Positions 4,011 to 34,333 of a stretch of 49,996 nt of DNA are shown piece after piece. The notes beneath the pieces were generated by a model that saw nothing but the letters and a program-made list of their open reading frames with translations, did no database searches and had not been told where the DNA came from. The translations under genes and the position numbers were made by a program. The DNA is from an uncultured Leptolinea sp. (GTDB lineage: Bacteria; Chloroflexota; Anaerolineae; Anaerolineales; Anaerolineaceae). Location: the NCBI GenBank assembly GCA_903828565.1, contig CAIKMQ010000004.1, positions 1 to 49,996 on the forward strand, in the 5' to 3' direction. Within the stretch, counting starts at the first letter, position 1; each line of letters starts with the position of its first letter.

Positions 4011-4016
4011 GAAAAC

Positions 4017-4862
4017 TCAGGTGCCCCAGTCTCGCAGGTATAGAAAGTCGTATCCGACTGTGCGATTGGTCAGTTTGGCAATCGGTGGCAGCATCCGTTT
4101 GAACTGGTTCCGGCGGATCCGTTCCACCACCCGCTCGACTAAGCCTTGTTCATAACCTGCGGCAACACAATCCAGGATCGTATACCGTTCATCCACAAGC
4201 AGGTAGAGCAGCGGATCGATGAAAGCATAGGTATAGCCCAGGTCTCCTTCATCCGTCTGACCGGCAAACAGGTCTGCGGTCGGTGGTTTGGCAACAATCA
4301 CTTCAGGAACACCCAGGTCTCGCGATAACTGTCGTACCTGGGTCTTGTACAGATCACCCAAAGGATTCAATGCACAGGCGGAATCTCCAAATAATGTGGA
4401 ATACCCCAACAGGATTTCTGTTTTATTACCAGTACCAATAACCAACCCGTGATGTTCTGCTGACAGATCATACAGTACGATCATACGACAGCGAGCCATA
4501 ATATTGCCCCGGCGGGTATTATCCATTTTCGGGTTATGGGAGATGAGAGCGTCTGCCATATCGGTAATGGGAATGGTCAGCAAGTCAATCCCAAGATTGT
4601 CCGCAACCATCATCGCATGGTCGAGGGATTCCTGTGAAGATGTGCGGTACGGCATGCGGACAGCCACCATGTTCGTGGGGCCCAATGCCTCCACAGCCAA
4701 AACGCAAGCCAGGGCAGAATCGACCCCGCCTGAAAGCCCGAGGACGGCCTTACTGATACCCACCCTTGCCAGCTCGCTCCGGATAAAGCCTGCCAATATC
4801 TGACGGGCGAGATTCGGGTTGATGTTCAGGTCCACAAGTGCCGGGTTTGGTTTGTCGGTCAT
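4017..4862 (-). CDS. nadE: NAD+ synthetase, synthetase subunit
   Basis: An N-type ATP pyrophosphatase that amidates nicotinate adenine dinucleotide to NAD+. The P-loop SGGVDS is at residues 44-49, GTGNKTE at 143-149, and the KPPTADL...QTDE segment near 192-205 is typical of NadE. The chosen ATG (protein starts MTDKPNP) has GGGTG eight bases upstream. A longer TTG start at 4883 would overlap the preceding gene and looks worse. At 281 residues it is the synthetase half only. The glutaminase half is the separate gene immediately upstream, four bases away, so the two products presumably form a complex that channels ammonia from glutamine, as fused NadE enzymes do. Confidence 0.93.
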   Translation of the reverse strand: MTDKPNPALVDLNINPNLARQILAGFIRSELARVGISKAVLGLSGGVDSALACVLAVEALGPTNMVAVRMPYRTSSQESLDHAMMVADNLGIDLLTIPITDMADALISHNPKMDNTRRGNIMARCRMIVLYDLSAEHHGLVIGTGNKTEILLGYSTLFGDSACALNPLGDLYKTQVRQLSRDLGVPEVIVAKPPTADLFAGQTDEGDLGYTYAFIDPLLYLLVDERYTILDCVAAGYEQGLVERVVERIRRNQFKRMLPPIAKLTNRTVGYDFLYLRDWGT

Positions 4863-4866
4863 CTGA

Positions 4867-5739
4867 TCACCCTTTATTAACAATCCGATTCAATTCTGCA
4901 TTCACCAGTGAGGTGCGTTCATCCCTCAAAAGAGGGAGCCTTGCCCGTGTTCGGTGCAGCCATCCCAGATCCACAGTCGCCAGCGTCAATGCTTCTTCAT
5001 GGTAAGGAGCCTGAGCGACCAATCCACCATCCGGGTTGAAGATGGTGGAGCCACCCCAAAAATGGAGCCCATCCTCATACCCCACCCGGTTGGTGTGTAC
5101 GACAAAGCTGGTGAATAGGCTGGCATACGCGCGGTTGATATGTTCCACCCAGCGGGCGGATTCCAGCTTTGGTTCGCGGGTCAACCCGCGGCCGGGAGAT
5201 GCCGATGAAAACAAAAGCAGGTCAGCCCCATCCAACCACAACAGGTAAGGGGGAGAAGCATGCCAGAAATCTTCGCAGATCAACATGCCCACCCGGCCAA
5301 ACCGGGTATCGAACGCACGAATCTCATCACCCCAGGCAAAAAACCGGCCTTCATCGAACAAGCCATAGGTCGGCAGGTAGACTTTGTGATGTACATGTGC
5401 TACCTGTCCGCGGGATAAATATGCCTGCGATATATAGAACCTGTGCCGGTCATCTTCGTCGACAAAACCTGCCACAATATCGATCTTACGGCTGGCTTCA
5501 AGTAAAGGCCCAAAGATCGGGTCATCCGCCCGGGGTTTACAGGCAACGATCGGGGCCAGGTCCTGCAAAACATAGCCAGTCAAGGATAATTCTGGAAAGA
5601 TGATCAAGTCTGCCGCTTGAGAAACAGCCTGATCGATATAGTCAATATGCTTCCTCAGATTTGCTGAGACGTCACCCAGGACGGTATTGATCTGCGCCAG
5701 TGCGATATGTATCTCTGTCATTTCACTATTGTACCGCAT
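4867..5739 (-). CDS. Nitrilase-superfamily glutaminase partner of NadE
   Basis: A carbon-nitrogen hydrolase of 290 residues. The catalytic triad is visible: Glu50 in FPELSLTGY, Lys119 in HHKVYLPTYGLFDEGRFF and Cys155 in ICEDFWH. LPTYGLFDEGRFF is especially close to the glutaminase domain of glutamine-dependent NAD synthetases, and the next gene is nadE, so the likely role is supplying ammonia to NadE (inference from family and adjacency). A second ATG at 5721 gives a protein starting MTEIHIALAQIN. Neither start has a clear Shine-Dalgarno. The gene is first in a minus-strand operon and is divergent from the NfeD gene. Confidence 0.88.
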   Translation of the reverse strand: MRYNSEMTEIHIALAQINTVLGDVSANLRKHIDYIDQAVSQAADLIIFPELSLTGYVLQDLAPIVACKPRADDPIFGPLLEASRKIDIVAGFVDEDDRHRFYISQAYLSRGQVAHVHHKVYLPTYGLFDEGRFFAWGDEIRAFDTRFGRVGMLICEDFWHASPPYLLWLDGADLLLFSSASPGRGLTREPKLESARWVEHINRAYASLFTSFVVHTNRVGYEDGLHFWGGSTIFNPDGGLVAQAPYHEEALTLATVDLGWLHRTRARLPLLRDERTSLVNAELNRIVNKG

Positions 5740-5788
5740 CCCAACTACCCGTCAGCAAGTTGTAATCATCAGCCGGATGAAATGAATG

Positions 5789-5794
5789 TATAAT
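5789..5794 (+). promoter_or_regulatory. -10 box for the nfeD-slipin operon
   Basis: TATAAT 26 bp before the NfeD start, followed by a strong AGGAGGG Shine-Dalgarno. The -35 region is not recognisable at the expected spacing. Confidence 0.4.
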
Positions 5795-5819
5795 AAAGTA
5801 GGAGGGAGCAAAGGATTTT

Positions 5820-6434
5820 ATGGATATTTTACTTAATCCCAATATCGCTTATCTGGTGATTGTCATTGGTTTTCTCATCGCCATCCTTGCCCTGTTCACA
5901 CCCGGCACAGGCGCATTAGAAATTGTCGCCCTGGTTTTACTCGTGGTGGCTGGTTGGCAGATCACCCAATTGGATTTCAATTGGTTCGCGCTCATCCTGA
6001 TGCTGGTCGGTGTTTTCCCATTCCTGCTGGCTTTGCGCAAAACCGGAAAATGGTACCATTTCGCGATTGCATTATTAGCGCTCACACTGGGAAGCACGTT
6101 CCTGTTTGTAAAACAGGGTTGGAAACCAGAAGTCAATCCATTTTTAGCTGCCATTATCAACCTGCTGGTTATCGGGTTCTTCTGGCTAATCTTACGAAAG
6201 GGTTGGGATGCCTTGCTATCAAAACCGCGCAATACGCTGGCTGAAACGATTGGCGCAGAAGGGGAGACGCGCTCTAAAGTCCACACAGAAGGTTCTGTAT
6301 ACCTGATGGGTGAGCTATGGAGCGCCAACAGTGTTCGACCGATCGAACCTAATAAAAAAGTGAAGGTCGTATCACGCAAAGGATACACGCTGACTGTGGA
6401 GGAAATCATTACCTCCGAAAATAAAAAATCATAG
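5820..6434 (+). CDS. NfeD-family membrane protein (short form)
   Basis: A 204-residue protein with about five hydrophobic helices (approximately 9-29, 33-48, 56-72, 80-96, 107-124) and a C-terminal soluble domain from about residue 135 (IGAEGETRSKVHTEGSVYLMG) that fits the NfeD OB-fold. The ClpP-like serine protease domain of long NfeD proteins is absent. It has a strong Shine-Dalgarno. A slipin gene follows 12 bases downstream, the conserved NfeD/slipin pairing seen across bacteria and archaea. In that pairing NfeD is thought to bind or regulate the SPFH protein in membrane microdomains; the exact role here is inferred. Confidence 0.87.
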   Translation: MDILLNPNIAYLVIVIGFLIAILALFTPGTGALEIVALVLLVVAGWQITQLDFNWFALILMLVGVFPFLLALRKTGKWYHFAIALLALTLGSTFLFVKQGWKPEVNPFLAAIINLLVIGFFWLILRKGWDALLSKPRNTLAETIGAEGETRSKVHTEGSVYLMGELWSANSVRPIEPNKKVKVVSRKGYTLTVEEIITSENKKS

Positions 6435-6446
6435 AAGGAGAATCAA

Positions 6447-7346
6447 ATGGATAGCCCGCAAATTCTAATCTTATGCGCCATCGGTGTTGTTTTTATGCTG
6501 GTACTCATCTTCCTGGTGAATGCCATCAAAGTAGTTCCCGAATACTATCGCCTCGTAGTTTTCCGCCTCGGCCGCTGCATTGGCGATAAAGGCCCTGGAC
6601 TGGTACTGTTGATCCCGTTCATAGACCGCCCGGTTCGCGTAGACTTGCGCGAACAAGTACGCGAGATACCACACCAGGTAAGCATCACCAAAGATAACGC
6701 CCCCATCTCGATCGACTTCCTCTGGTTCTACAAAGTTCTAACCCCGACCGATTCTGTCGTGCAGGTAGGCAACTTTGAAATGGCTGCGCAGGGTATGGCT
6801 TCTACCACCCTGCGGTCTGTGATCGGCGGCATCATGCTGGATGCAGTCCTCTCAGAACGCGAGCACATCAACAACCTGCTGCGCACGCGGTTGGATGAAG
6901 TCACCGAACGCTGGGGTGTCAAAGTAACCAACGTAGAGATCCGCGAGATTGTTCCGCCCCGGGAAGTACAGGATGCAATGAACCGCCAGCTCTCCGCTGA
7001 ACGTAACCGCCGTGCCGTGGTGACTGAATCCACCGGCCAACGCGAAGCCGCCATTAATGTGGCTGATGGCCAAAAACAATCCGCCATCCTGCAGGCTGAA
7101 GGTGAAAAACAATCCAACATCCTGCGTGCGGAAGGCGATCAGATGGCTCAGGTGTTGCGTGCAGAAGGTTACTCCAATGCCCTCTCCAAGATCAACTCTG
7201 TCGCCAAGACCGTGGATCAGAAGGCTCTTACCGTTCAGTACTTTGAAACGCTGAAGACCATGGCATCCGGTGCTTCCACCAAGTTCATCTTCCCAATGGA
7301 ATTCACCAGCTTGCTGGGCAATTTCATCAAAGCCAACAAAGATTAA
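6447..7346 (+). CDS. Slipin / stomatin-like SPFH-domain protein
   Basis: A 299-residue protein with one N-terminal membrane helix (about 5-27), a band-7/PHB domain (about 28-190, including KVVPEYYRLVVFRLGR and VEIREIVPPREVQDAMNRQL), and an Ala/Glu/Gln-rich helical stretch with repeated QAEGEKQSNILRAEGDQ units (about 200-245) that drives oligomerisation in this family. The C-terminus is short and hydrophobic (FIFPMEFTSLLGNF). AGAAGGAG precedes the ATG. It forms an operon with NfeD and ends at a perfect 16-bp hairpin. Slipins scaffold membrane microdomains and some are processed by NfeD proteases; the partner here has no protease domain. Confidence 0.93.
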   Translation: MDSPQILILCAIGVVFMLVLIFLVNAIKVVPEYYRLVVFRLGRCIGDKGPGLVLLIPFIDRPVRVDLREQVREIPHQVSITKDNAPISIDFLWFYKVLTPTDSVVQVGNFEMAAQGMASTTLRSVIGGIMLDAVLSEREHINNLLRTRLDEVTERWGVKVTNVEIREIVPPREVQDAMNRQLSAERNRRAVVTESTGQREAAINVADGQKQSAILQAEGEKQSNILRAEGDQMAQVLRAEGYSNALSKINSVAKTVDQKALTVQYFETLKTMASGASTKFIFPMEFTSLLGNFIKANKD

Positions 7347-7364
7347 CCTCAGTACAGCTGAACC

Positions 7365-7402
7365 AGTAACAGCGAAGGGAAAACTCTCCCTTCGCTGTTA
7401 CT
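7365..7402 (+). terminator. Intrinsic terminator of the nfeD-slipin operon
   Basis: A perfect 16-bp stem with a 6-nt loop (AAACTC), followed by a short and weak T-tract. It lies 14 bp before the next gene. Confidence 0.75.
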
Positions 7403-7415
7403 TTACAATAAACTT

Positions 7416-7853
7416 ATGATCGAGATCACTGAAGCATCCATCCGCGACCTGATGGATCTGCGCCGCCTGGAGCAGGCCTGTTTCGACTTGGATGCCTGGC
7501 CGCTGCTGGATCTGGCCGGGGTACTTTCCTTACCCGGTATTATCCGGTTGCGCGCCCTGGTCAATGGTACCTGGGCCGGTTTTATCGCTGCTGAAGTAGA
7601 TGCGAAGAAGATCGGCTGGATCACCACACTGGGTGTGTTCCCAGCATACCGCCGGCAAGGTGTAGCCAGGGCTCTCCTGCATGCGTGTGAGGCAGCCCTG
7701 CTAGTATCCGATATCCGTCTGACACTACGCGCCGGAAATACCGGGGCTATCCAACTCTACAACCACGGGGGCTATACGGTCATTGACCGCTGGTTTCGTT
7801 ATTATAAGGATGACGAAGACGGCCTGGTAATGCGCCGGCTGATGGCAAAATAA
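7416..7853 (+). CDS. GNAT N-acetyltransferase (RimI-like)
   Basis: A 145-residue single-domain GNAT protein. The acetyl-CoA motif A is clear (LGVFPAYRRQGVARALL, about 72-88, with the R/Q-x-x-G-x-A signature), followed by RAGNTGAIQLYNHGGY (about 105-120). That second motif is typical of RimI-type protein N-terminal acetyltransferases, and the substrate could equally be a small molecule. No TsaB or TsaD gene, the frequent RimI neighbours, is seen here. It is a monocistronic unit bounded by two hairpins. Confidence 0.8.
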   Translation: MIEITEASIRDLMDLRRLEQACFDLDAWPLLDLAGVLSLPGIIRLRALVNGTWAGFIAAEVDAKKIGWITTLGVFPAYRRQGVARALLHACEAALLVSDIRLTLRAGNTGAIQLYNHGGYTVIDRWFRYYKDDEDGLVMRRLMAK

Positions 7854-7883
7854 AAGCACCCCTTCATAATCAGGGGTGCTTTT
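7852..7883. terminator. Bidirectional terminator between the GNAT gene and nrfA
   Basis: The stem AAAAGCACCCC pairs with GGGGTGCTTTT around a 10-nt loop. The A and T flanks give a T-tract in both directions, suiting the convergent genes on each side. Confidence 0.85.
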
Positions 7884-7899
7884 GAGACTACTGGTCGCA

Positions 7900-9219
7900 T
7901 TACTGGGGTGCTGCGTAATACACACCGGTGATCAATAGTGCCGGGTTACCAACGGACTGTGCCGCCAGCATCTGAGCCTGCCGGGAATAGTTGGTGGATT
8001 CTGCTAGTATTTTCAAAGCATACTCCGGGTTATGAAAACCGGTACTGTTTTCAGCCGAAACAAAATCCCAGAGGAATTGAGCTCTACGATACAGTTGTTT
8101 CGCCTGGTCCAGCAAAGCGCTATCATTGGGTGAGATGGCATTTGCCGCTTTGATGGCTGTGATCGCATCGATCAGGGCATCTTCGGCAGAGATCTTGGTA
8201 ATGCTTACCTGGCCTTGGATCTCCTGCACGCGCCCTGTGACATATTCCACATCTGTGTGGCAGGTACCACAGGATTTCTCGGGGTTCAACAACGGGCTGT
8301 GGATATCGTGCATGGAGTACTTGGCAGCTCCATCGCGGACGTACGGCATGTGGCAATCCGCGCAGGATACCCCGGCCTCATAATGCGTGCTGCCAGCGCT
8401 GAAGAATTCAAATTCCGGGTGCTGCGCCTTGAGCATTGGCACACCGGCATCCGGATACTCCCAATCCTTAAAGCCCAGATCATTATAATAACCCACGATG
8501 GAATCAATGTCTGTGCCATCTTTCCAGGGGACGTTCAGGACTTTATTTTCACCGCTCATATAGTATTCCACATGGCAGTTGGCACAAACCACCGTGCGCA
8601 TCTCCTGCCGGCTGAATTGTGTCCAGTCGATCCCCTGGGCTTCAAAGCCCGCAATGACTGCCGGGTTGGTCAGTACCAGTTTCATGGTGTTGGCTTCATG
8701 GCAGTTTGCACAGCCTATCGGTTCAGAGATCTGCTCACCCAGTTCGGCAAATGGCATCTTGCTGAATGCTTCCAGACCAATGGTGTCCCAAATGGCTGGG
8801 TTATTGGATGATTTACAGGCATAACAGGTACCGGGTGTTTTCTCGTTAACCCGTTTCGTGTTGCGCACATCTTCCAGACTCCATTCATGCCCGCGGTCGT
8901 CATTGTACTCCTTGCTGAAGCCATAACCCGCGAATAAGACCAGCTGTCGTGGATCTCGCTCCAGCCAGGAAAAGCCTGAAGACCCGCCGAACTCGGTATC
9001 TGTTTTGTTGGTCTTTGTTTTCAAAAGAGAATCATACTGGTTTGGAAAGTTGAGGCCCCATTTCGAAGAATCCGGCTCCAGCGCAGGGATCGTCTGAAGT
9101 GGTTCAGTAGCCCGGTTCTGTATCGGTTGATTCTTAAGAAAGACCAGGATGCCAACTAGGATCGCAGCCAGAATGATGATGACAGCAACTAAAATGATGG
9201 TGGTCAAGTGTTTTTTCAT
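7900..9219 (-). CDS. nrfA: Pentahaem cytochrome c nitrite reductase, ammonia-forming
   Basis: This enzyme reduces nitrite to ammonium with six electrons. One N-terminal membrane or signal helix (about 5-28) leads to an extracytoplasmic domain. There are five haem motifs: the diagnostic active-site CYACK (132-136, lysine-ligated) and CANCH (170), CANCH (212), CADCH (286) and CGTCH (317). Catalytic residues can be placed at Tyr219 or Tyr220 in CHVEYYMSG and His267 in AQHPEF. The 439-residue length is normal. Its ATG overlaps the nrfH stop by four bases (ATGA), so the genes are translationally coupled. The dedicated CXXCK haem-lyase genes (nrfEFG) are not in the window. Confidence 0.96.
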   Translation of the reverse strand: MKKHLTTIILVAVIIILAAILVGILVFLKNQPIQNRATEPLQTIPALEPDSSKWGLNFPNQYDSLLKTKTNKTDTEFGGSSGFSWLERDPRQLVLFAGYGFSKEYNDDRGHEWSLEDVRNTKRVNEKTPGTCYACKSSNNPAIWDTIGLEAFSKMPFAELGEQISEPIGCANCHEANTMKLVLTNPAVIAGFEAQGIDWTQFSRQEMRTVVCANCHVEYYMSGENKVLNVPWKDGTDIDSIVGYYNDLGFKDWEYPDAGVPMLKAQHPEFEFFSAGSTHYEAGVSCADCHMPYVRDGAAKYSMHDIHSPLLNPEKSCGTCHTDVEYVTGRVQEIQGQVSITKISAEDALIDAITAIKAANAISPNDSALLDQAKQLYRRAQFLWDFVSAENSTGFHNPEYALKILAESTNYSRQAQMLAAQSVGNPALLITGVYYAAPQ

Positions 9220-9891: not shown

Positions 9892-10284
9892 TTATGGAGC
9901 TACAGGGGGTAAGATTGCGTCTTTCAGGTGGTTGTGGATGGAGCCTTTCACAAAAGCCGCATAAACTCCCTGCTCCACAGCCCGGTGGACCCCCTGCGAA
10001 TCATCCACCAGCATGACAATCTTCAAATGCGGGTTGACCTTCACAGCATCCTTTAACCAGACGGCATCCTGCCAAGTTCCGGATGGATCCGCTTTCAACA
10101 GGTCACAGTCAATGACCAGAATATCTGTATGTACCAGCTTCATGAACAGGATGGCATCATCCAGTGTTTCGAGTAATGGATGGAGATAAATATTCTCAAG
10201 CGTCAATATATACGAATTTAATGAGCTCCGCATGATCCCCCGTGGAGCAGCGATCAGAACATGGACCGGGATCTTTTCTTCCAT
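9892..10284 (-). CDS. Lone degenerate response-regulator receiver
   Basis: A 130-residue protein with the size and secondary-structure rhythm of a CheY-like receiver and no output domain. The core VHVLIAAPRG aligns with the usual VLIVDDHP but lacks the metal-binding acidic pair. LVIDCDL supplies a possible phospho-acceptor Asp59 (or Asp61), AAFVKGSI supplies the conserved Lys113, and the conserved Thr/Ser appears replaced in VMLVDDSQ. It is therefore probably a pseudo-receiver that cannot be phosphorylated normally. It lies 77 bp downstream of the NarL-type regulator, in the same direction, and carries upstream an element shared with the beta-helix genes. Function unknown; a role modulating the adjacent two-component system is inference. 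Confidence 0.65.
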   Translation of the reverse strand: MEEKIPVHVLIAAPRGIMRSSLNSYILTLENIYLHPLLETLDDAILFMKLVHTDILVIDCDLLKADPSGTWQDAVWLKDAVKVNPHLKIVMLVDDSQGVHRAVEQGVYAAFVKGSIHNHLKDAILPPVAP

Positions 10285-10328
10285 GTCTTGAGTTTACCTA
10301 GATTAAACAACTTCCGCATCACGGATTT

Positions 10329-10358
10329 GTTTATTTCTGACTAAATACTATCTAAACA
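10329..10358 (-). promoter_or_regulatory. Candidate operator upstream of the degenerate receiver gene
   Basis: On the plus strand GTTTATTT is followed 12 bp later by CTAAATA and after a further 11 bp by CTAAACA. The same GTTTATTT...CTAAACA arrangement occurs upstream of both beta-helix genes. It lies about 45-74 bp upstream of the start codon. Confidence 0.4.
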
Positions 10359-10361
10359 GTC

Positions 10362-11009
10362 CTACGGCGCAGGATGCTTCAGGGCGTAATCCACCAGGTC
10401 ACTACGCTCATGAAGCTTCAGCTTCTCCATGATGTTGTAAATATGCACCCTCACGGTAGATTCAGTAATGAACAGCGCTTCGGCGATCTGCCGGTTATTC
10501 ATACCCCTGCCGACGCGCTCGGTCACTTCGATCTCGCGAATCGTCAGCGAGGATTGGTCGTTCAGGTTTTCCATCTGCATGGCATTGGCAAGTTTTCTGG
10601 CTACCTCAGGCGAAAGGTGTTTATTCCCCCGGGCGACATCGCGGATGCCTTCAATAACCTCATTCCTGTTTGAATCTTTGATCAGAAATCCTTCTGCTCC
10701 GGCCCTCAGTGCCACAGCCACTTTTTCATCTTCATTGGAACTGGTGAGGATCAGTACCCTCGAATCTGGAAACTCAGCCCGAATCCTCCGCGTGGCTGTA
10801 ATCCCATCCATGACCGGCATGTAGACGTCCATCAATACCACGTCCGGCCTAACCTCTTCCACTTTCAGCAGCGCAATCTGGCCGTTCTCAGCCTGTCCCA
10901 CTACTTCCATATCGGCTTCCGTCTCAACCAGCCCGATCAGTGCCTCACGCATTAGCGGATGGTCATCCACGATCAATACACGGATTCGATGATCGTTATT
11001 CATATCCAT
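10362..11009 (-). CDS. NarL/FixJ-family response regulator
   Basis: A 215-residue regulator. The receiver has the acidic pair Asp15-Asp16 (VLIVDDHP), phospho-acceptor Asp61 (VVLMDVYMP), LTSS near 88-91 and Lys111 (FLIKDSN). A LuxR-type helix-turn-helix occupies about 150-210, including LTIREIEV, NNRQIAEALFITESTVRVHI and NIMEKL. It starts nine bases after the kinase gene, so the two form an operon and a cognate pair. Likely targets nearby, judging from a shared upstream element, are the beta-helix genes and the degenerate receiver, but this is inference. nrfHA is another possible target. Confidence 0.93.
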   Translation of the reverse strand: MDMNNDHRIRVLIVDDHPLMREALIGLVETEADMEVVGQAENGQIALLKVEEVRPDVVLMDVYMPVMDGITATRRIRAEFPDSRVLILTSSNEDEKVAVALRAGAEGFLIKDSNRNEVIEGIRDVARGNKHLSPEVARKLANAMQMENLNDQSSLTIREIEVTERVGRGMNNRQIAEALFITESTVRVHIYNIMEKLKLHERSDLVDYALKHPAP

Positions 11010-11018
11010 ATTCTCCCA

Positions 11019-12950
11019 TCATAAGCTGTTAACCAAGTTACTGGATAGGAAAACTTCCACACTTGTACCCTTACCAGGCGTTGAAAGTAATTTGTACAAC
11101 GCTCCAACACGGTTGCACCGCTCACGCATGTTCTTCAACCCCATACCCCCGGTATGTTCATCCAAAGGGTTAAAGCCAATCCCATCATCTTGAATTCTGA
11201 TCCACATTCCACTTGCTTCTACCTCAAAATTCACAGAGACTTGACTGGCATGCGCATGTTTCAGGCTGTTATTCAGCGCTTCCATCATAAAGGGATACAT
11301 CTCCACTTCCACATTCTTCGGCAGGAAGAAACCATTATCTTCCTTGAAACTCACGTGGACGCCCGCTCTTTTTTCCACAGCCGCCACGCGATTGCGAATC
11401 AGGCTCACCAAGTTGGTTTCACTGGGATTGCTCAAACGCAGCTCATACAACAGCATGCGCATTTCCTTTAATGCCTGGCGGGATCCTGTGGAGATCATTT
11501 CCAACGTCTTGTGCAGCTTTTCCGGGCTGGTGGTCTGTTGCACCTGGGCAGTCTCTGCTGAGAATATCAACCCCTGTAGTGATTGGGTGACTGAATCATG
11601 CAGATCCTGAGCCAAGCGCCGGCGTTCCTGCATCTTCGCTGTGTCCGCAATGATATGGTTCAAACGCGAATACTCGAAGAGCAAACCGAATGTATCGGTG
11701 GTTCCATTGATAAAGATAATCTCATCTACCCCAAACTCATGCGGCTCTTCCCACAAAGCGCAGATATAGCCGATCACTTTCCCGCGGATCTGGATGGATT
11801 TACCTGCGGCTGCTTTGTACATATCCCCGAGAAAGATTATGGGAAAGCTAGACTCTCCACCGGGATGTGGAGCCATCTGTACTTCAGGCGCAGCCTGATG
11901 CCAATCGGGTCGGATTGCTAGCAAATAATTCGAGGCATCTTCGGTCAGACCGATACTGCCCGTCAGCCGCATGGTATTCTCCTCCTGCTTGAAAAACACC
12001 AACGCCTGGCAGCTTAAGATCTCTCGGATTTTGACCAGGGAACCGGAAATAAGATCCCCGCCAACCTGGGTTTCATTGCTGATGAGCACCATATCAAAAA
12101 GACTAATAAGGTTGGAATTCAAAGCCGACAACCGGGCAGAGATCTCTTCCCGAGAAGAGAGCAAGTCAGATTCCAATTGCTGGCGCAGGTGTATCTGCTC
12201 ATTTAAATCGCGGATCGACTGGCTCATATCCTGCTGCCGCATTAGATTCCGTTCTCGCTCTTCGATCTGCAGATCCAGTTCCAGGAGGAAACCTGATATC
12301 ACAAATGCAAAAGTCGCCAGTTCCAGGCCTTCCAGAGGGCTGAAACCGAACACATACACCCCGTTTGCCAGCCAGGGAAGGATACCTGCCAACCCGATGC
12401 GAATGACCGTACCCCGGTTTTCCTTGCGCTGCTTGACCGCCCAGCGGAAAAGGATGCTGCCGGCGATCAACATGATCAGATAGGAATAACCAACCGTGAG
12501 TACCCAGAAGAGGATGCCGTGCCCATATACCAGCAGATTCTTTCCGGCCGGGCTGGGAGTGAACGTTGTCCAGATAAGGTGATGGTATTCATTCGTTGCC
12601 GTAAATAGAATGGTGATGACTGGAATAACGAAGAGCCAGAGAATATGGCGTCGCAAGAATTGCCAGTCATGATGACTAATCAGAAGGGCATGATTTAGGA
12701 ACAACACGGGGATGGTCAGTAAGCCCAGGTACTCTAATTTGGCCCAGAGCACCTTCGTCTCCACATCGACGGCAGCATATTCCATCGCCAAAAAGATGCA
12801 CCAGAAGAACATCACCCCAAGCATCACGCTCAGACTTTTATCTTTTTGAGTACCGCGGAAAAGCGCGTAGATGCCGATCACCAGTGCAAAGGTAGCTGAA
12901 ACGGCATTATATAGCACAAATTCTGTCAGTACGTAAGCTGGCTCTGCCAT
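11019..12950 (-). CDS. Sensor histidine kinase with N-terminal 7TM domain
   Basis: A 643-residue kinase. The first 225 residues contain about seven membrane helices resembling the His_kinase_7TM_N module. A coiled coil (about 225-290) leads to a GAF-like domain (about 285-430), then a HisKA_3 dimerisation box RRRLAQDLHDSVTQSLQGL with phospho-acceptor His451. The HATPase_c domain shows the N-box around MMEALNNSLKHAHA (555-568), DDGIGF (588-593) and GGMGLKNMRERC. The stimulus is unknown; the 7TM module suggests a membrane-associated or small-molecule ligand. AGGAAAG precedes the ATG. It is first in the operon with the NarL-type regulator. Confidence 0.92.
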   Translation of the reverse strand: MAEPAYVLTEFVLYNAVSATFALVIGIYALFRGTQKDKSLSVMLGVMFFWCIFLAMEYAAVDVETKVLWAKLEYLGLLTIPVLFLNHALLISHHDWQFLRRHILWLFVIPVITILFTATNEYHHLIWTTFTPSPAGKNLLVYGHGILFWVLTVGYSYLIMLIAGSILFRWAVKQRKENRGTVIRIGLAGILPWLANGVYVFGFSPLEGLELATFAFVISGFLLELDLQIEERERNLMRQQDMSQSIRDLNEQIHLRQQLESDLLSSREEISARLSALNSNLISLFDMVLISNETQVGGDLISGSLVKIREILSCQALVFFKQEENTMRLTGSIGLTEDASNYLLAIRPDWHQAAPEVQMAPHPGGESSFPIIFLGDMYKAAAGKSIQIRGKVIGYICALWEEPHEFGVDEIIFINGTTDTFGLLFEYSRLNHIIADTAKMQERRRLAQDLHDSVTQSLQGLIFSAETAQVQQTTSPEKLHKTLEMISTGSRQALKEMRMLLYELRLSNPSETNLVSLIRNRVAAVEKRAGVHVSFKEDNGFFLPKNVEVEMYPFMMEALNNSLKHAHASQVSVNFEVEASGMWIRIQDDGIGFNPLDEHTGGMGLKNMRERCNRVGALYKLLSTPGKGTSVEVFLSSNLVNSL

Positions 12951-13113
12951 CGTTTTCTTTCCTGTGATAATTCCTGCCGAAGTATCCTTTTATCCTTTCA
13001 GCCGTCGCCAAACAGCCCTAGAAGTTGCACTCTCTAATGGTACTCTGATTGAACCAGCAGCGCAACCAACACGCTCACGGAGTAACGGAAAACATTCTGG
13101 ATATGAAAGTAAA

Positions 13114-13143
13114 ATTACCCGGCAGAATACTCCACCGGGTAAT
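13114..13143 (-). terminator. Terminator of beta-helix gene A
   Basis: ATTACCCGG pairs with CCGGGTAAT around a 12-nt loop, and on the minus strand it is followed by TTTTACTTTC. It begins 20 bp after the stop codon. Confidence 0.85.
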
Positions 13144-13162
13144 CAATTACTTTATTGCCTTG

Positions 13163-13640
13163 TTACTTCTGTACCACTACGAAGGTGCCGGTGAAGTTCA
13201 CCGAGAAGCGCGCGGTGCCTTCAGCGGTGTAGGTTACACCCGTCAGCACTTTGTACGCCGGGTTGGATGCGGAGAAGGAGCCTTCGCTGCCGACCACCGG
13301 GATCTTCACCCAGGCACTCGCGCCGGCATCCCAGTACAACACACTCAGATTAGCCGGGTTGCCGCCAGCCACCAGGTTCAGTTCGGCGCTGCCGTCTTCA
13401 GGGATGACACCATCTACGGCACCGGCTACTGTCTCGGTGTACGCACTGATAAAGGTCCAGCCATCGTTCAGGGTCCCGGGCAGGCTGCCGCTCTGCACCG
13501 TAGTGAAGGCCGCATCGCTGCCGCAGAAACCGTCAAAGGCCACGGTGTCGCCCGTCCCCAATACCAGGGAGGTGAAGCCGTATCCGCATTCCACTGCTAC
13601 GCTCTGCCCTGAGGTTACCGGTACGATATGGCCGGATACG
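13163..13640 (-). repeat. Conserved C-terminal segment, copy A
   Basis: Direct repeat partner of 16248-16725. The two align at a constant offset of 3085 bases, with no indel over at least 458 bp from the stop codon inward and long identical runs. It encodes the shared C-terminal domain of the two beta-helix proteins. Confidence 0.9.
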
Positions 13641-16015
13641 CCGGGTTGTTTGATTGGGTCGTTACTTTGTCCGATGCAATCAGTGAATTCGATCAGATTG
13701 CCACTCCAATCCATCGAGAACTCCGAAAGACCATCTGCTCCATTGCCAGTAAAAGTGACTCCGGCCAATGTGACATCGTTCAATCCGTAAGCTTCAAACC
13801 CGGGATAGTCTGTTTGGACGCCATTGTATTCGAATGTGGTGCAGTTGAAAACCATGTTCTGCACACCATCCACTACGATATAAGCGCCAGATTCACCCGA
13901 ATTGGAGACTTTGACATTTGTCAATGTAAGGGTATTCATGATCTCATCCAGATACAACCCGTTACTTTTAGCCTCATCAATGGTCGTATCTGTTATTGAA
14001 AGATCATCTAAGTAGTAGGCATCAATGCCAAAACTGCCGCCGTTGATCGTGGTGTCACTGATCGTAACACCGTTGGCATACTCTATATCGATACCTGTAC
14101 TCAGGAAGTTGTCGATCTGAACACCGGCGATCTCCAGGTCATCGACCTCGTAAGATTCGATCCCATACGCGCCATCTGTAATAGTCGTATTCTGGATGCT
14201 GGCGGATAAAGTATCATTGATAGCGATGCCTGTAGTATATTCAGTGATCTCATCACCCTCTTGTTCGATACCGGTCGAGCTTACAGTTGTATTGGAAATA
14301 GTAACACTATCCAAAGACTCCAGTGCAAGGCTATCATAGTTGTTGGTATAGGTGCTGTCAGACACCGTCACATTACCGGCGATCGATATGTATGTACCGG
14401 TACAGCTGTTCAGCCAGCCATTGTGGGAGGATGCAATGCCAGACAGGTCAACCTGGTCATTTTCCCACAGGTAGATACCATCGCAGGCGCTGTTGCTGGT
14501 GCTGATATCTGTGATGGTGACATCCTGGTCGTAATTGCCGCCGATGCGCAGGTTATCCCAGCTTTGCGTGTCCCAGATTCCACTACTCTGGAAATCCACC
14601 GGTACAGCCCCATCCAGGGTGATGCTGTCGATGTTCACCACTGCAGAGATAGGATCACTGTTCTCATCCACCAGCCCGGTGTTATCAATACCGACCTGGG
14701 CATACCAGTTACCAGTGTAATTACCACCTTCGATCGTGATGTCTGGTGAGTTATAGATCTGCAGGCCGTTGCAATCGTTATCATTGCTATAAGAATCAGT
14801 ACAATCTTCGATTCCAGAGGCATTATTTTTGGCATCCGTATCCTGGATAAGGACACTGTCAGCGCCATCAATCATAATGCCGGTGTAGGTGTTGTTATTT
14901 GCCACAGTATTGCTGATGCTGACGTTCCCGACATCCGCCAGGTAGATTCCATATCCATCTTCTGTGGTATTGGAAAACTCGCTCGGTTTTGCGGCATCAG
15001 AACTGTTGATATTCACATTACCGACATTCCAAACAGCCAACCCATCCCAGGCAGTGTAATTAACCTTCACATCGGTCAACACCAGAGAATCCGTTGCGCC
15101 ATCTGCAGCAGTAGAGTTATCCCACTGGATGCCGTTAAGAGAAGTGGTTCCAACAACTATTTGACTGAGACCAACCGCATCCGCATCACCGATGAAAATA
15201 CCTCTACCGGCATCATCCACGAGGATTTCGCTCATAGTGATATTCCCATCCGCTTCCACTGCAAAGCCCACATCCGAGCTGTCATAAACAGAGGAACTTG
15301 TCACTTGTATATTCCCACCAGCGTCCAGAGACATCCCGGAAACATCAGCCAGGTCGCCCGCAGGAGCCCCAACTACAACATCATCCACAGTGATATCACC
15401 GGTAGTGATGATATCCAGGCCATTGCTTGATATAGCATGGGTGCCTGGGTTCGATACTCCCGGGTTATAGATGGACAGACCGGAAACAGTGATGTCTGCT
15501 GTTTGGTTGATCAAGGAGATACCCATTAAGAATGTTTGTCCGCTGCTAGCACCCTGAATGCCTGTAAACCCGGCATAGGCGGTATCAATATAGATCGCCT
15601 CGTTGAAAGTTCCGGCAACAATTGTTAACGGGCCGCCAACTGTCAGATTGCCATTCTTGCAAGAATCAAGGCCGATCAACGCATTGGCTATCGTTGTATA
15701 GGATACTTGTTGGCCATCGCAGTAAAACGATGCAATGTTATTCGGCGTTCCCTTGAGAGCGTCACTGGCTTCTGTAGAGGCCAAAGGCAGCTGTTCCCCC
15801 TCTACATTGAGAACCACCAGATCTACTTCTTCCGGCAGCAATTCAAGTACCTCAGCTGGTGCTGATTCCTCGGGAACTGCAACCTCTTCGGTCGGCGCGG
15901 GTTCCACCGGTTGTTCATCCTGTGCGTACACGCTCAGCGGGCGAGCAAAGGAGAAGATGAAAGTAAATACGACGATCAAAGATGTTATCCGCAAGATCTG
16001 GTTGTTTTTCGACAT
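13163..16015 (-). CDS. Secreted right-handed beta-helix protein A
   Basis: A large extracellular protein of 950 residues. A Sec signal peptide (basic MSKNNQILRI, hydrophobic core, likely cleavage after Ala31 in SVYAQDEQ) is followed by a Pro/Glu-rich linker. Residues of about 130-780 are parallel beta-helix (PbH1/NosD-like) repeats of about 22-25 residues, many with the form ITISDTTINGGSFGIDAYYL. The last 150 residues form a separate conserved C-terminal domain (SGQSVAVECGYGF to NFTGTFVVVQK) shared almost unchanged with the neighbouring paralog. No LPXTG, PEP-CTERM or lipobox is visible, so anchoring is unknown. Pectate-lyase-like catalysis cannot be supported; an adhesin or surface-layer role is a guess. 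Confidence 0.85.
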   Translation of the reverse strand: MSKNNQILRITSLIVVFTFIFSFARPLSVYAQDEQPVEPAPTEEVAVPEESAPAEVLELLPEEVDLVVLNVEGEQLPLASTEASDALKGTPNNIASFYCDGQQVSYTTIANALIGLDSCKNGNLTVGGPLTIVAGTFNEAIYIDTAYAGFTGIQGASSGQTFLMGISLINQTADITVSGLSIYNPGVSNPGTHAISSNGLDIITTGDITVDDVVVGAPAGDLADVSGMSLDAGGNIQVTSSSVYDSSDVGFAVEADGNITMSEILVDDAGRGIFIGDADAVGLSQIVVGTTSLNGIQWDNSTAADGATDSLVLTDVKVNYTAWDGLAVWNVGNVNINSSDAAKPSEFSNTTEDGYGIYLADVGNVSISNTVANNNTYTGIMIDGADSVLIQDTDAKNNASGIEDCTDSYSNDNDCNGLQIYNSPDITIEGGNYTGNWYAQVGIDNTGLVDENSDPISAVVNIDSITLDGAVPVDFQSSGIWDTQSWDNLRIGGNYDQDVTITDISTSNSACDGIYLWENDQVDLSGIASSHNGWLNSCTGTYISIAGNVTVSDSTYTNNYDSLALESLDSVTISNTTVSSTGIEQEGDEITEYTTGIAINDTLSASIQNTTITDGAYGIESYEVDDLEIAGVQIDNFLSTGIDIEYANGVTISDTTINGGSFGIDAYYLDDLSITDTTIDEAKSNGLYLDEIMNTLTLTNVKVSNSGESGAYIVVDGVQNMVFNCTTFEYNGVQTDYPGFEAYGLNDVTLAGVTFTGNGADGLSEFSMDWSGNLIEFTDCIGQSNDPIKQPGVSGHIVPVTSGQSVAVECGYGFTSLVLGTGDTVAFDGFCGSDAAFTTVQSGSLPGTLNDGWTFISAYTETVAGAVDGVIPEDGSAELNLVAGGNPANLSVLYWDAGASAWVKIPVVGSEGSFSASNPAYKVLTGVTYTAEGTARFSVNFTGTFVVVQK

Positions 16016-16086
16016 GTTTCCTCCGAATTATGGTATATTCCACCATTAATAGTAAATGGTTTTTCTTGTGGATGTATCGCATCTTC

Positions 16087-16114
16087 GTTTATTTATCCTA
16101 AACAGTTTGTTTAT
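16087..16114 (-). promoter_or_regulatory. Candidate operator of beta-helix gene A
   Basis: GTTTATTTAT followed by CTAAACA-GTT-TGTTTAT, an inverted repeat with one arm mismatch. Its centre is 91 bp upstream of the start codon. A further CTAAAC half-site lies at 16121. The paralog promoter carries the same arrangement at nearly the same distance, although the rest of the upstream DNA differs. Confidence 0.5.
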
Positions 16115-16159
16115 CTTTCTCTAAACTGTTCTTCACCCCCCCGGAAGTAGGGAAAAAAA

Positions 16160-16191
16160 GAACAGGGAGATCCTTTCGGCTCTCCCTGTTC
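16160..16191 (-). terminator. Terminator of beta-helix gene B
   Basis: GAACAGGGAGA pairs with TCTCCCTGTTC around a 10-nt loop, followed on the minus strand by seven T residues. This makes genes A and B separate transcription units. Confidence 0.92.
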
Positions 16192-16247
16192 GATCTACTT
16201 CTTATTGTCGCAGGCACATTTATTGCTTGCGGATCCAATTCCGGTGT

Positions 16248-16725
16248 TTACTTCTGTACCACTACGAAGGTGCCGGTGAAGTTCACCGAGAAGCGCGCGG
16301 TGCCGTCAGCGGTGTAGGTCACACCGGTCAGTACTTTGTACGCCGGGTTGGATGCGGAGAAGGAGCCTTCGCTGCCGACCACCGGGATCTCTACCCAGGC
16401 GCTCGCGCCGGCATCCCAGTACAACACGCTCAGGTTCGCCGGGTTGCCGCCAGCCGCCAAATTCAACTGGGCGCTGCCATCTTCAGGGATGACACCATCT
16501 ACGGCACCGGCTACTGTCTCGGTGTACGCACTGATGAAGATCCAGCCATCGGTCAGGGTACCGGGCAGGCTGCCGCTCTCCACCGCTGTGAAAGCCGCGT
16601 CGCTGCCGCAGAATCCGTCAAAGGCCACGGTGTCGCCCGACCCCAATACCAGGGAGGTATAGACATAGCCGCATTCCACTGGCACGCTCTGGCCGGAGAT
16701 CACCGGTACCACATGGCTGGACGGA
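16248..16725 (-). repeat. Conserved C-terminal segment, copy B
   Basis: Direct repeat partner of 13163-13640, in the same orientation and encoding the same C-terminal domain. The substitutions are scattered and many are at third codon positions, so the protein level is under constraint. Confidence 0.9.
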
Positions 16726-19571
16726 CCTGAATCCGGAGTAGAAGGCTTCTGGTCAACAACGACACAATCTGTAAAGGTAAGCAGGGTGCCGCTGTACTCC
16801 AGGTAGAGGTCGGTGCCATTATCCGTTGTGGTGATACCTGCCAGGGTGGCATTGACGCCATTGTACATTTCCACGCCGTATCCACCATTGCCACTGAAGG
16901 AAGAGCAATTAAGCGTGGTCAGTGAGCCGTCATCCCCGGTGACATCCAGGTAAATACCACTATCATCATTCGAGTCGGAGAGTACATTCGTAATGGTAAT
17001 CTGCGGGTTTGCAGAACTGGTTGAGATCAGGGAGATACCCGATTTGGCATTTTGCCCAAAATTTGAATCGCTTAGTTCTACGTCTCCGTGGAATTCGCTC
17101 ATCGCTAGCCCCTGCCCATTGTTATACATGGCTTCCACCCCTGTCATGCTCACATCCCCTTGAACATCTGCCAGGAAGATACCGGCATCTTCGTCACCAA
17201 AGGCACCATTCTCATCAAAGAATGAATCGGTGATCGTCAGATCATTAATGTAGCTGCCATACATACCACCATAACCATTGGCATTGAACTCGCTGTTCTC
17301 AATATCCAACTGATCTATTTCGTATAGATCGAACCCGTATTGCCCATTCTGGTTCATCGTGACATTAGAAATAAGTAAATTGGATCCTTGTTCAAAATTG
17401 AAAGCTGTCAAGCCCCAGTAAATATTCTCATCAAGATTATTTTCAGAAATGGTAGCATCACCATTAATGTATTCCAGATACAAGCCGTAGTCGTTATAGT
17501 TGGCGGTAATGTTCTCAACGGTGACATCATTGGCGCAATCGATATATATGCCTTCCTGATTGTTTGTAAACACTTTGGCATCACCGGATATATCCACCGT
17601 CCCTGAAGCACAGATCGATATACCTTGATTGTTATTGCTGGATTCGATCGGATTAGTCATGGTGACATTGCCATAATCGGAATCCTCATCATTCCAGGCT
17701 TGGACAGCCAACCCCGAACCAGCATTTCCGAGGGAATTGGCCGTCTCAAAATCATAACCGCCGTAGAGTTGGGTCCCATTTAAGGTGATATTGCCGCCAT
17801 CCCACCAGCTGGCATCATCCCAATTAATGTCCCACTCCGCGTATTCTTCATCAAAGTAAGCTTCATACAATCCACTCTGAAGGAAGGCCCCGGGACCATC
17901 ATAGGTGGATTGGGCGGTAACCGTATCGCTATCAGAAGTACCCAGCGTGATATTGCCCAGGGTGTTGACAGCCAAACCGGCTTCAAAGTTCCCGATAAAG
18001 TTATTTTCTCCACTGATGGTCACATCATAATCGTTCAGATCATAGTCAGGATCTTCTATGTCCGGCAGCATGTAGCAGAACATATCTCCATAATCATAGA
18101 AACCCGGACAAGATGCGAATAATACACCCACATAGTTATTTGAAGCATTCAGATTGCTGGCTGAGATGGTGCCATCTATGAAAGCTTCCAAACCGTTACC
18201 AGAATTGTCATTGAAGGTATTGGTACCGGTCAGAGTCAGAGAACCACCCAGGCCTTGCGCCGGGGCATCATAAATGCCCCAGTAATCTTCCAGGTCGAAA
18301 TCATACTCAAATAGATTATGGATGGATGCGCCGGTTGTCCCATTTTCATTGGCTGTCAGGTTATTGATGGTAATATCCTGATTGGCCCAGATCAACAATC
18401 CATTACTCATATTATTGTTAACTGTATTGCTGCCCAGTAATGAGATCGGTTGGGTGGTGGTGGTGTCTTCACGCCAGATCTCAACGCCGTTCCCATCATT
18501 AGAAGAAGCTGTGAGGTTGGAATCCTCCGCCTGGGAGATCAACCCGCCAGCATTCACCAGAAGCCCGGTATAATTGTTGCTATTAAACGTGTTGGCGCCT
18601 TCCATCGTGAGCGAGCCGGAACCACTGCACGTGCCAAGAAGGTCATCGTACATGCAGTTGTCTATGTCTGCCCCGTTTCCGCCATTCCCGTTCGCTGTTA
18701 CGCCATCCAGCACCACATTCCCGGTCGTGTCAATGTCCAAACCGGTAGTTACATTACTATTGAACTGGCTGTCGGTGATTGTCACATCGCCTTCGGTCGA
18801 GATGAGAAAGCCAGGCCGATAATTTACAACACCCACGACCGCGTCCCCGCCTGAGGCGGTTACCTGCACATCTTCCACCACCACATCGCCTGTGCCATAA
18901 ACCCCGAACACCCCGTATGAATTGTAGCCGGTGGTGTTCGCGAAATGGATATCATTGATAGTGACCGTATCCGCCCAGTGGGTCACCATCATTGTGCCTG
19001 TCCCAAAATCAAAGGTGGAATATGGCGTGGTAGCGTCCATCGAGTTTGAGGTGAAATTCCAGCCGCCTTGCAGCGTCAGGTTATCCAGATTGCTTAGAGA
19101 TGTCTGATCAAAAGTAATATTTTGACCATAGTCATCCCCCAGGGTGGAAGCATACGCGGAAGTTACATAGACCGTCCCGTTGCCGCTCTTGGTGCTTAAA
19201 ACCGCCAACAAGTCCGTCAGGCTGTCATATTTCAAGGTGCAGCTGGCATCCCCCGGTAATTTATCTACAGGGCACCAGGTAGTGGAACCAACCCAGCCTG
19301 TTTTTAAAGCTTCTTCAGAGGCTAAAGGTAGAGGTTCACCTTCAGAGGAAAGTACGATGACATCTGTATTCTCTGGTACCTGTGCCAGTATCTCGCTGAG
19401 CTCCGGGATGGTCGTTGGCTCTTCCGCCGGAAGTGTGACCTCTTCTGTCGGCGTGGGTTCCACCGGCTGTTCATCTTGCGCGTACACGCTCAACGGGCGC
19501 GCAAAAGAGAAGATAAAGGTAAAAACGACGATCAAAGCTGTAATCCGTAACACCCGTTTATTTTTAGACAT
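16248..19571 (-). CDS. Secreted right-handed beta-helix protein B
   Basis: A 1107-residue paralog of the downstream gene. The signal peptide is almost identical (MSKNKRVLRI start, SVYAQDEQ cleavage region), followed by a Pro/Thr/Glu linker. The central part (about 130-940) is parallel beta-helix with many Asn-ladder repeats such as NNNQGISICASGTVDISG, plus acidic loops rich in Asp, Tyr and Trp that may bind calcium. The final 150 residues match the C-terminal domain of protein A (SGQSVPVECGYVY to TFVVVQK). The centre is strongly diverged from A while both ends are conserved. Extracellular location is well supported. The function is unknown, and no catalytic motif is recognisable. Confidence 0.85.
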   Translation of the reverse strand: MSKNKRVLRITALIVVFTFIFSFARPLSVYAQDEQPVEPTPTEEVTLPAEEPTTIPELSEILAQVPENTDVIVLSSEGEPLPLASEEALKTGWVGSTTWCPVDKLPGDASCTLKYDSLTDLLAVLSTKSGNGTVYVTSAYASTLGDDYGQNITFDQTSLSNLDNLTLQGGWNFTSNSMDATTPYSTFDFGTGTMMVTHWADTVTINDIHFANTTGYNSYGVFGVYGTGDVVVEDVQVTASGGDAVVGVVNYRPGFLISTEGDVTITDSQFNSNVTTGLDIDTTGNVVLDGVTANGNGGNGADIDNCMYDDLLGTCSGSGSLTMEGANTFNSNNYTGLLVNAGGLISQAEDSNLTASSNDGNGVEIWREDTTTTQPISLLGSNTVNNNMSNGLLIWANQDITINNLTANENGTTGASIHNLFEYDFDLEDYWGIYDAPAQGLGGSLTLTGTNTFNDNSGNGLEAFIDGTISASNLNASNNYVGVLFASCPGFYDYGDMFCYMLPDIEDPDYDLNDYDVTISGENNFIGNFEAGLAVNTLGNITLGTSDSDTVTAQSTYDGPGAFLQSGLYEAYFDEEYAEWDINWDDASWWDGGNITLNGTQLYGGYDFETANSLGNAGSGLAVQAWNDEDSDYGNVTMTNPIESSNNNQGISICASGTVDISGDAKVFTNNQEGIYIDCANDVTVENITANYNDYGLYLEYINGDATISENNLDENIYWGLTAFNFEQGSNLLISNVTMNQNGQYGFDLYEIDQLDIENSEFNANGYGGMYGSYINDLTITDSFFDENGAFGDEDAGIFLADVQGDVSMTGVEAMYNNGQGLAMSEFHGDVELSDSNFGQNAKSGISLISTSSANPQITITNVLSDSNDDSGIYLDVTGDDGSLTTLNCSSFSGNGGYGVEMYNGVNATLAGITTTDNGTDLYLEYSGTLLTFTDCVVVDQKPSTPDSGPSSHVVPVISGQSVPVECGYVYTSLVLGSGDTVAFDGFCGSDAAFTAVESGSLPGTLTDGWIFISAYTETVAGAVDGVIPEDGSAQLNLAAGGNPANLSVLYWDAGASAWVEIPVVGSEGSFSASNPAYKVLTGVTYTADGTARFSVNFTGTFVVVQK

Positions 19572-19642
19572 AAATCCTCCTGATAAGGTTTAATACCATC
19601 TATATTTATAAACTATGGGCCTGCGGGACACATCACTATTTT

Positions 19643-19671
19643 GTTTATTTATTTCTAAACATTTTGTTTAG
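19643..19671 (-). promoter_or_regulatory. Candidate operator of beta-helix gene B
   Basis: GTTTATTTAT followed by a perfect inverted repeat CTAAACA-TTT-TGTTTAG at 19655-19671, centred 92 bp upstream of the start codon. A possible -10 (TATAAA, minus strand) lies near 19605-19612, which would put the dyad at an activator-like position. Confidence 0.5.
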
Positions 19672-34314: not shown

Positions 34315-34333
34315 TACATAGAACAGCAACGAC

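Follow-up and report, generated by a model that had tools for sequence, protein, structure and literature searches.

A predicted operator shared by surface-protein and pseudo-receiver genes at a NarL-type two-component locus of an uncultured Leptolinea

What is the repeated element that precedes three genes of a two-component locus in an uncultured Leptolinea sp., and which protein reads it? The locus lies in a stretch of 49,996 nucleotides (the window; assembly GCA_903828565.1, contig CAIKMQ010000004.1, positions 1 to 49,996). It encodes, all on the minus strand, a pseudo-receiver that we call R (9892–10284), a response regulator of the NarL/FixJ family (215 aa; 10362–11009), its partner histidine kinase (11019–12950), and two secreted beta-helix proteins, B1 (950 aa; 13163–16015) and B2 (1107 aa; 16248–19571). 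An earlier note on this DNA had seen in a CTAAACA-containing element the mark of a surface-protein regulon controlled by this regulator. We consider it likely that the element is the operator of the regulator encoded at 10362–11009 and that it serves class II activation of the surface-gene and pseudo-receiver promoters; regulator binding, activation, the transcription starts and the role of R are what we infer from the sequence.

The motif GTTTATTT is found at 10329, 16087 and 19643, with CTAAATA at 10341, CTAAACA at 10352, and further copies of CTAAACA at 16098 and 19655. In gene orientation these sites have the sequences TGTTTAG-GAT-AAATAAAC (B1), TGTTTAG-AAAT-AAATAAAC (B2) and TATTTAG-TCAG-AAATAAAC (R). 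All motif strings given in the earlier note are present where it placed them, and the two inverted repeats that it described upstream of B1 (16098–16114, minus strand; ATAAACAAACTGTTTAG on the gene strand) and B2 (19655–19671, minus strand; the perfect CTAAACAAAATGTTTAG) have their centres 91 bp from the B1 start (16015) and 92 bp from the B2 start (19571). Its statement that the intervening DNA has diverged is borne out: when the 120-bp upstream regions of B1 and B2 are aligned globally, the longest stretches of identity fall in the element and in the Shine-Dalgarno sequence that both genes possess. The borders that it drew need revision, as the most constant part reaches further downstream and has the form ATAAAC-N7-(TGATGT-like hexamer)-N19-(-10 box) on the gene strand, CTAAACA/TGTTTAG being extra half-sites upstream. 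Thus the putative promoter/operator of R (10291–10334, minus strand) consists of ATAAAC (10329–10334), N7, TGATGC (10316–10321), N19 and a -10 box TAAACT (10291–10296), preceded by the half-sites TATTTAG (10341–10347) and TGTTTAG (10352–10358) on the same strand. That of B2 (19605–19648, minus strand) has ATAAAC at 19643–19648, TGATGT at 19630–19635 and a -10 box TATAAA at 19605–19610. In that of B1 (16049–16092, minus strand), ATAAAC (16087–16092) is followed at the same distances by the degenerate hexamer CGATAC (16074–16079) and TACTAT (16049–16054), hexamer and -10 box being assigned by spacing. A look-alike that the earlier note had reported before the kinase gene (CCAAACAGCCCTA, 13008–13020) lacks ATAAAC-N8-GATG, of which the surrounding 17 kb contains just two sites. 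Another, GTTTATTT...CTAAA from 28533, does not fit TTTAG-N2-6-AAATAAAC and was judged to be due to chance.

In the source genome (2,224,945 bases in 48 contigs) the element is rare. TTTAG-N2-6-AAATAAAC has three matches genome-wide, at R, B1 and B2 and each time in the orientation of the gene (reversed control, 1), and CTAAACA-N3-TGTTTA with at most one mismatch yields four rows, which are the B1 and B2 places on both strands (reversed control, 1 + 1); both patterns were derived from the sites themselves. For ATAAAC-N8-GATG there are ten N8-GATG matches (control, 3), and TGATG is present solely in those at R and B2. In the window taken by itself, 2 matches to CTAAACA-N3-TGTTTAG with up to three mismatches, against 1.17 expected, do not reach significance, so that the weight of the element rests on the genome-wide counts and on relatives. 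The repeats are not chance: a genome-wide search, as the earlier note had proposed, finds a frequency that is not random and matches preceding both genes that share a C-terminal domain. This domain has B1 and B2 as its sole two matches in the genome, both preceded by the element. The two copies are 92% identical over 147 aa (13163–13606 and 16248–16691, minus strand), which points to duplication or gene conversion in the recent past. Weak relatives of the domain exist in 10 of 100 other genomes searched.

Relatives provide further evidence. Nine ATAAAC sites are known from five genomes, namely that of the window, a Chloroflexi metagenome-assembled genome (MAG), an Oscillochloris MAG, an Anaerolineae MAG and Pelolinea submarina, and all nine lie beside an orthologous kinase-regulator pair. 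The hexamer is recognisable in seven of them (TGATGT, TGATGC or GGATGC), each time exactly 7 bp from ATAAAC. A -10-like hexamer comes 19 bp further on, its assignment at B1 and at loci L047 and L048 resting on spacing. ATAAAC-N8-GATG is found upstream of R and B2 in the window, of R in L048, of R and both secreted genes in L049, and of the surface gene in L065 (P. submarina MO-CFX1). Its only occurrence in 843 other upstream regions is that of the second secreted gene of L049 under a different start codon. The L048 site reads CTAAACGCCCCGTTTAG-...-ATAAACACCCCGCTGATG, with a gap of 62% GC. The recognition helix of the window's regulator is TVRVHIYNI, and regulators at ATAAAC sites have T(V/I)RVH in all five genomes. 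Other regulators carry RTH, RSH, RIH, RNH, RFH or GKH, with the exception of RVH in L050 (genome G380); in L051 and L054 the helix was not recognised.

The gene order is likewise conserved, in a taxonomically patchy manner. Kinase matches at E 1e-50 were obtained in 8 of 350 genomes of the order, the source genome included, and of 361 loci confirmed in a species collection 80 were kept. The regulator gene comes next after the kinase gene in 75 of 83 loci, which were picked by kinase similarity. The order kinase, regulator, R, secreted protein(s) is found in L048, L049, L053, L056 and L070, and in L052 with an intervening short frame; in L065 it is kinase, regulator, surface protein. The linked proteins have Pfam matches to Sortase, Beta_helix_3 and Flg_new (L065), SdrD_B (L053), Laminin_G_3 (L056), and Big_7 and N_BRCA1_IG (L052 and L070), with Cohesin just below the cut-off for the second protein of L049; the L048 protein and the first L049 protein have no Pfam match. 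The putative targets are secreted or surface proteins, as a surface-protein regulon would have them, apart from R, which is not itself a surface protein. Of 61 genomes searched for R, five had matches, the source genome included; L010 and L011 proved to be ordinary regulators, and G002 holds the only true R among the four other matches (L012 left out). At this locus (L047) the order kinase, regulator, R is kept at identities of 34% (kinase, 615 positions), 47% (regulator) and 27% (R; range 25–28%), and TAAACGCCCTGTTTAG-N14-AATAAAC follows the regulator gene. Scanning 147 family genomes with the pattern gave matches solely in G000 (2), G002 (1) and G030 (1), with none in the control; that in G030 (L027) lies inside an ABC permease gene.

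Upstream of the constant part the architecture varies. The distance from the proximal to the upstream TAAAC is 22 bp at B1, 23 bp at B2, 32 bp at L047 and L048, and 10 bp at R and the first secreted gene of L049; the second secreted gene of L049 shows distances of 10 and 22 bp, and the window's R and L065 have TTTAG half-sites instead. The earlier note's idea of spacing in helical turns agrees with this, since upstream half-sites lie about one, two or three turns away (10, 22–23 and 32 bp). The palindrome that it took as the core does not hold that position: TAAAC-N5-GTTTA is present at B1, B2, L047 and L048 but not at the window's R, the three L049 sites or L065, and the L049 sites carry 10-bp direct repeats in its place. 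The module that it proposed is upheld insofar as kinase, regulator, pseudo-receiver, secreted proteins and element recur jointly in distant genomes, and falls with respect to the look-alike at the kinase gene; the phylogenetic footprinting that it called for finds the element kept directly upstream of R and/or secreted genes in distant relatives. We also observe that GTTGAG/CTCAAC takes the place of the window's GTTTAG/CTAAAC in the upstream boxes of L043, L056 and L070, and that L056 has ATCAAC for ATAAAC, as if the half-site had drifted by one base.

The downstream part of the element has a wider distribution, which was followed by means of a promoter rule. The spacing rule hexamer-N19-TAnnnT was recorded before the test regions were read, and the regular expression was written afterwards; five of 23 upstream regions were dropped (L157, L158 and L159 as discovery duplicates, L169 and L174 with unresolved starts). 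GATG-N20-TANNNT occurs at 9 of 14 discovery sites and in 8 of the 18 further upstream regions kept, which are R-like, orthology with R being not proven for all; dinucleotide shuffles of these 18 gave a mean of 0.16 and a maximum of 2. When the gap is varied from 8 to 33, the counts peak at 20 only, with 9 in the discovery set (0–2 at other lengths) and 8 in the test set (0–3 at other lengths). Within 500 bp after the regulator gene the signature is present at 18 of 73 kinase-regulator loci, where about 1.5 would be expected from its density elsewhere in the loci (90 in 2.2 Mb), and gap lengths of 14–19 and 21–26 give 0–6 loci each in the same span. Discovery loci account for seven of these 18, and the promoter at L078 is a repeat of L170 from the test set. 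Other upstream regions have GATG-N20-TANNNT in 13 of 843 cases; one of the 13 belongs to a target, and another five (L071, L076, L086, L091 and L108) lie directly after a regulator gene. Ten of the 14 sites have an extended -10 TG, and the -10 hexamers match TATAAT at 3–5 of 6 positions; the hexamers at 17 bp, in the -35 position, match TTGACA at just 1–4 of 6. As a separate observation, the -35-like box at L165, L166, L178, L092 and L093, which have other regulators, is GACCGATG, and in L092 and L093 this box stands before an opposite-strand hydantoinase-like gene, a name guessed from its N-terminus.

How would the regulator use such a site? The predicted geometry is that of class II activation, with the site over the -35 region and at a fixed distance from the -10 box. 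Among the window's own promoters, that of R fits, that of B2 fits with TATAAA, and that of B1 does so solely with the degenerate hexamer assigned by spacing. We suggest that the proximal site, ATAAAC-N7-TGATGT-like hexamer, overlaps and replaces the poor -35 box of a sigma-70-type promoter. If the first base of the -10 box is taken as -12, ATAAAC would extend from -50 to -45 and the hexamer from -37 to -32, with the centre of the site near -41. The bound and presumably phosphorylated regulator would then activate in class II mode, as the fixed 19 bp to the -10 box suggests. The upstream half-sites or inverted repeat, one to three turns away, probably recruit more regulator molecules cooperatively. 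In the window the targets would be B1, B2 and R, and transcription of R probably begins at its start codon or immediately beside it. Class II activation appears to be the best fit given the rigid phase to the -10 box, the poor -35 matches and the frequent extended TG; a poor -35 together with an extended -10 is typical of activator-dependent promoters.

A different division of labour is conceivable, in which a specialised sigma factor uses GATG-N20-TA as its promoter, ATAAAC serves independently as an activator or UP-like box, and the regulator acts on part of the arrangement or elsewhere. The spacing is as rigid as in sigma contacts, and GATG and the -10 spacing persist in loci with other helices and upstream boxes; the regulator may therefore not read GATG, which could be a polymerase or sigma contact, and this persistence counts against the operator assignment itself. 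The -10 hexamers nevertheless approach TATAAT and mostly carry the extended TG, the signature clusters right after the regulator gene and is rare elsewhere, and ATAAAC stands 7 bp from the hexamer in all seven sites where the latter is recognisable. On balance we regard a specialised sigma factor as unlikely. We judge similarly improbable that the regulator binds the element as a repressor, blocking polymerase at -35 until a signal relieves it: the proximal site does overlap the -35 region, but overlap alone gives no sign to the effect, the weak -35 hexamers and the extended -10 in 10 of 14 sites argue for activation, and a steric block needs no fixed phase to the -10 box. Finally, that the element is an AT-rich remnant of the B1/B2 duplication with no regulatory role is very improbable, for although the paralogy of B1 and B2 is recent, at least for their C-terminal 147 aa, the unrelated R gene of the same genome carries the element too, and distant orthologous loci keep it at the same spacing, one of them with a GC-rich gap.

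Several further findings weigh against the operator of a class II activator. The signature GATG-N20-TANNNT fails at 5 of the 14 discovery sites, B1 and B2 of the window among them, and ATAAAC-N8-GATG is found in none of the 18 further regions, so the box that precedes GATG is lineage-specific. At B1 (CGATAC) and L047 (CATTGG) the hexamer is degenerate and was assigned by spacing, and the -10 box of L048 is weak (GATGCT, 3/6). The loci were found via the kinase, and their proximity to it is accordingly a selection effect. A tree places the RVH regulators together with that of L051 in one clade (91/96 support), for which reason the match between helix and operator counts as one evolutionary event and not as independent proof. 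The sixth genome with this helix, G380 (L050), a predicted carrier of the site, has no composite match and no confirmed site; of its 12 looser matches two could be placed, both inside one gene, and ten had no placement. It is also without R or a surface gene after the regulator. G002 has no secreted gene after R on its 8.5-kb contig, where ABC-transporter genes follow instead, and G001, a genome of the same genus that is 85% complete, has no detectable R, kinase orthologue (E <=1e-50) or B1/B2 domain. As G001 is the sole other genome of the genus examined, the module appears patchy even at short range.

In an order-wide scan the total for the composite pattern did not exceed chance. ATAAAC-N6-S-TGATG-N20-TA gave 12 matches in 10 of 400 genomes, compared with 15 in the reversed control. 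Five of the 12 are at kinase-regulator loci (R and B2 of the window, the surface gene of Pelolinea, and in G400 both R and the second secreted gene), and these five had served to build the pattern; the source genome and G400 are the only ones with two matches. A pattern longer by one base gave 6 matches (control, 7), none at kinase-regulator loci. Among the other seven matches, L193, L194, L197 and L201 lie inside frames of at least 150 aa, and for L200 and L202 no enclosing frame was demonstrated. The remaining match, L198 in G049, is intergenic and lies 5' of a gene for a secreted protein of about 1,500 residues. This gene (L217, minus strand, site at 8165, gene at 3550–8112) encodes an SdrD_B/GEVED protein whose alignment with the R-linked surface protein of L053 shows 40% identity over 1029 columns. 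The ten loci read in G049, of 17 kinase matches, revealed no T(V/I)RVH regulator, and we treat the L198 gene as a candidate regulon member. Of looser matches in other genomes, those in G072 (1032328) and G400 (C29) are inside genes.

What might R contribute to a regulon of surface proteins? R has no Pfam match at E 0.01. Its AlphaFold2 model (pLDDT 86.2) has a receiver-like order of strands and helices, and Foldseek aligns the model with the receivers of DesR, VraR and RcsB (probability 1.00, TM by query 0.65–0.73); a receiver fold is thus predicted with confidence. None of nine aligned R proteins keeps both residues of the acidic pair, L053 having one Glu, and R of the window reads IAAPRG where the regulator reads IVDDHP. 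The start codon of R follows the -10 box by 6 nt in the window, L048, L049 and L056, 7 in G343, 10 in L047, 46 in L053 and 117 in L070 (L052 was left out, its start codon being unsettled), and by 20–109 nt in ten of the further R-like regions. Because of the distances of 6–7 nt from the predicted -10 box, the R mRNA is probably leaderless in the window, L048, L049, L056 and G343. Since R sits under the same operator as the surface genes, it would most likely be a feedback partner of the kinase or the regulator. More speculatively, HisKA_7TM kinases and NarL-type regulators might drive surface-gene promoters of the form box-N7-nGATGn-N19-extended -10 throughout the Chloroflexota, co-producing an often leaderless pseudo-receiver decoy that mimics the regulator's receiver and limits the response by feedback, either by pairing with the regulator or by blocking the kinase; we hold this generalisation to be possible and rather doubtful. 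We note separately that a 142-aa frame in L010 (763–1191, minus strand) follows the G013 regulator gene, appears by eye receiver-like without the acidic pair, and is followed by a 4Fe-4S protein.

The annotation of the locus is based on the following matches. The regulator has Response_reg (4.4e-29) and GerE (1.4e-18), both above the Pfam cut-offs; it combines a receiver with a LuxR-type helix-turn-helix and has a HisKA_3 kinase gene adjoining, as is characteristic of the NarL/FixJ family. Among solved sequences, those nearest to the regulator are chains with the name VraR (E 2.6e-45 to 1.2e-42). The kinase matches HisKA_7TM, HisKA_3 (1.1e-16) and HATPase_c, and both B1 (1.6e-27) and B2 match Beta_helix. 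An N-terminal hydrophobic stretch is seen in the translation of B1; secretion of B1, B2 and the proteins of relatives was judged by reading N-termini. An RNA element as explanation of the repeats was rejected, as Rfam at gathering cut-offs gives solely a T-box leader elsewhere in the window (34320–34562, plus strand; 97.7 bits, cut-off 93), just 5' of an ORF at 34597–35634.

How Anaerolineae adhere, flocculate and behave as filaments is important in sludge and sediments, and the literature searched did not yield a description of surface-protein control in these bacteria. The locus offers a specific regulator, an operator predicted at base level and a strictly spaced promoter rule, and P. submarina MO-CFX1, with locus L065, is a named strain that has a complete genome. 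It adds a family of separate pseudo-receivers whose genes lie under the promoter signature of the regulator's presumed targets. No description of the operator, the regulon or a conserved separate pseudo-receiver was found in the open-licence literature searched.

Compared with known systems, the locus most resembles those of the VraSR/LiaSR type, whose outputs are envelope-linked: a NarL-family regulator gene stands beside that of a HisKA_3 kinase, and the regulator is nearest to VraR chains. The kinase differs in its N-terminal HisKA_7TM region, and we know of no VraSR/LiaSR-type operator that is like the one predicted here. In class II activation by DevR/NarL-type regulators, a proximal box overlaps -35 and further boxes lie upstream. 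The geometry proposed here is similar, with a site centre near -41, overlap with -35 and helically phased upstream boxes, whereas the predicted proximal site, ATAAAC-N7-TGATGT, is asymmetric. In the three-component LiaFSR-type system, LiaF is described as an inhibitor (PMC7191749). The third gene here encodes a predicted receiver-fold protein and not LiaF or VraT, which sets the locus apart from LiaFSR/VraTSR systems. As for pseudo-receivers, their switching is termed a mystery in PMC12632262, the main text of which does not contain the words chloroflex-, single-domain or stand-alone; by comparison with the pseudo-receivers treated there, R is a separate protein that lacks an output domain and is encoded under a surface-gene promoter signature. 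Each of the ingredients is known, as is the kind of system, and it is the conserved pseudo-receiver that is unusual.

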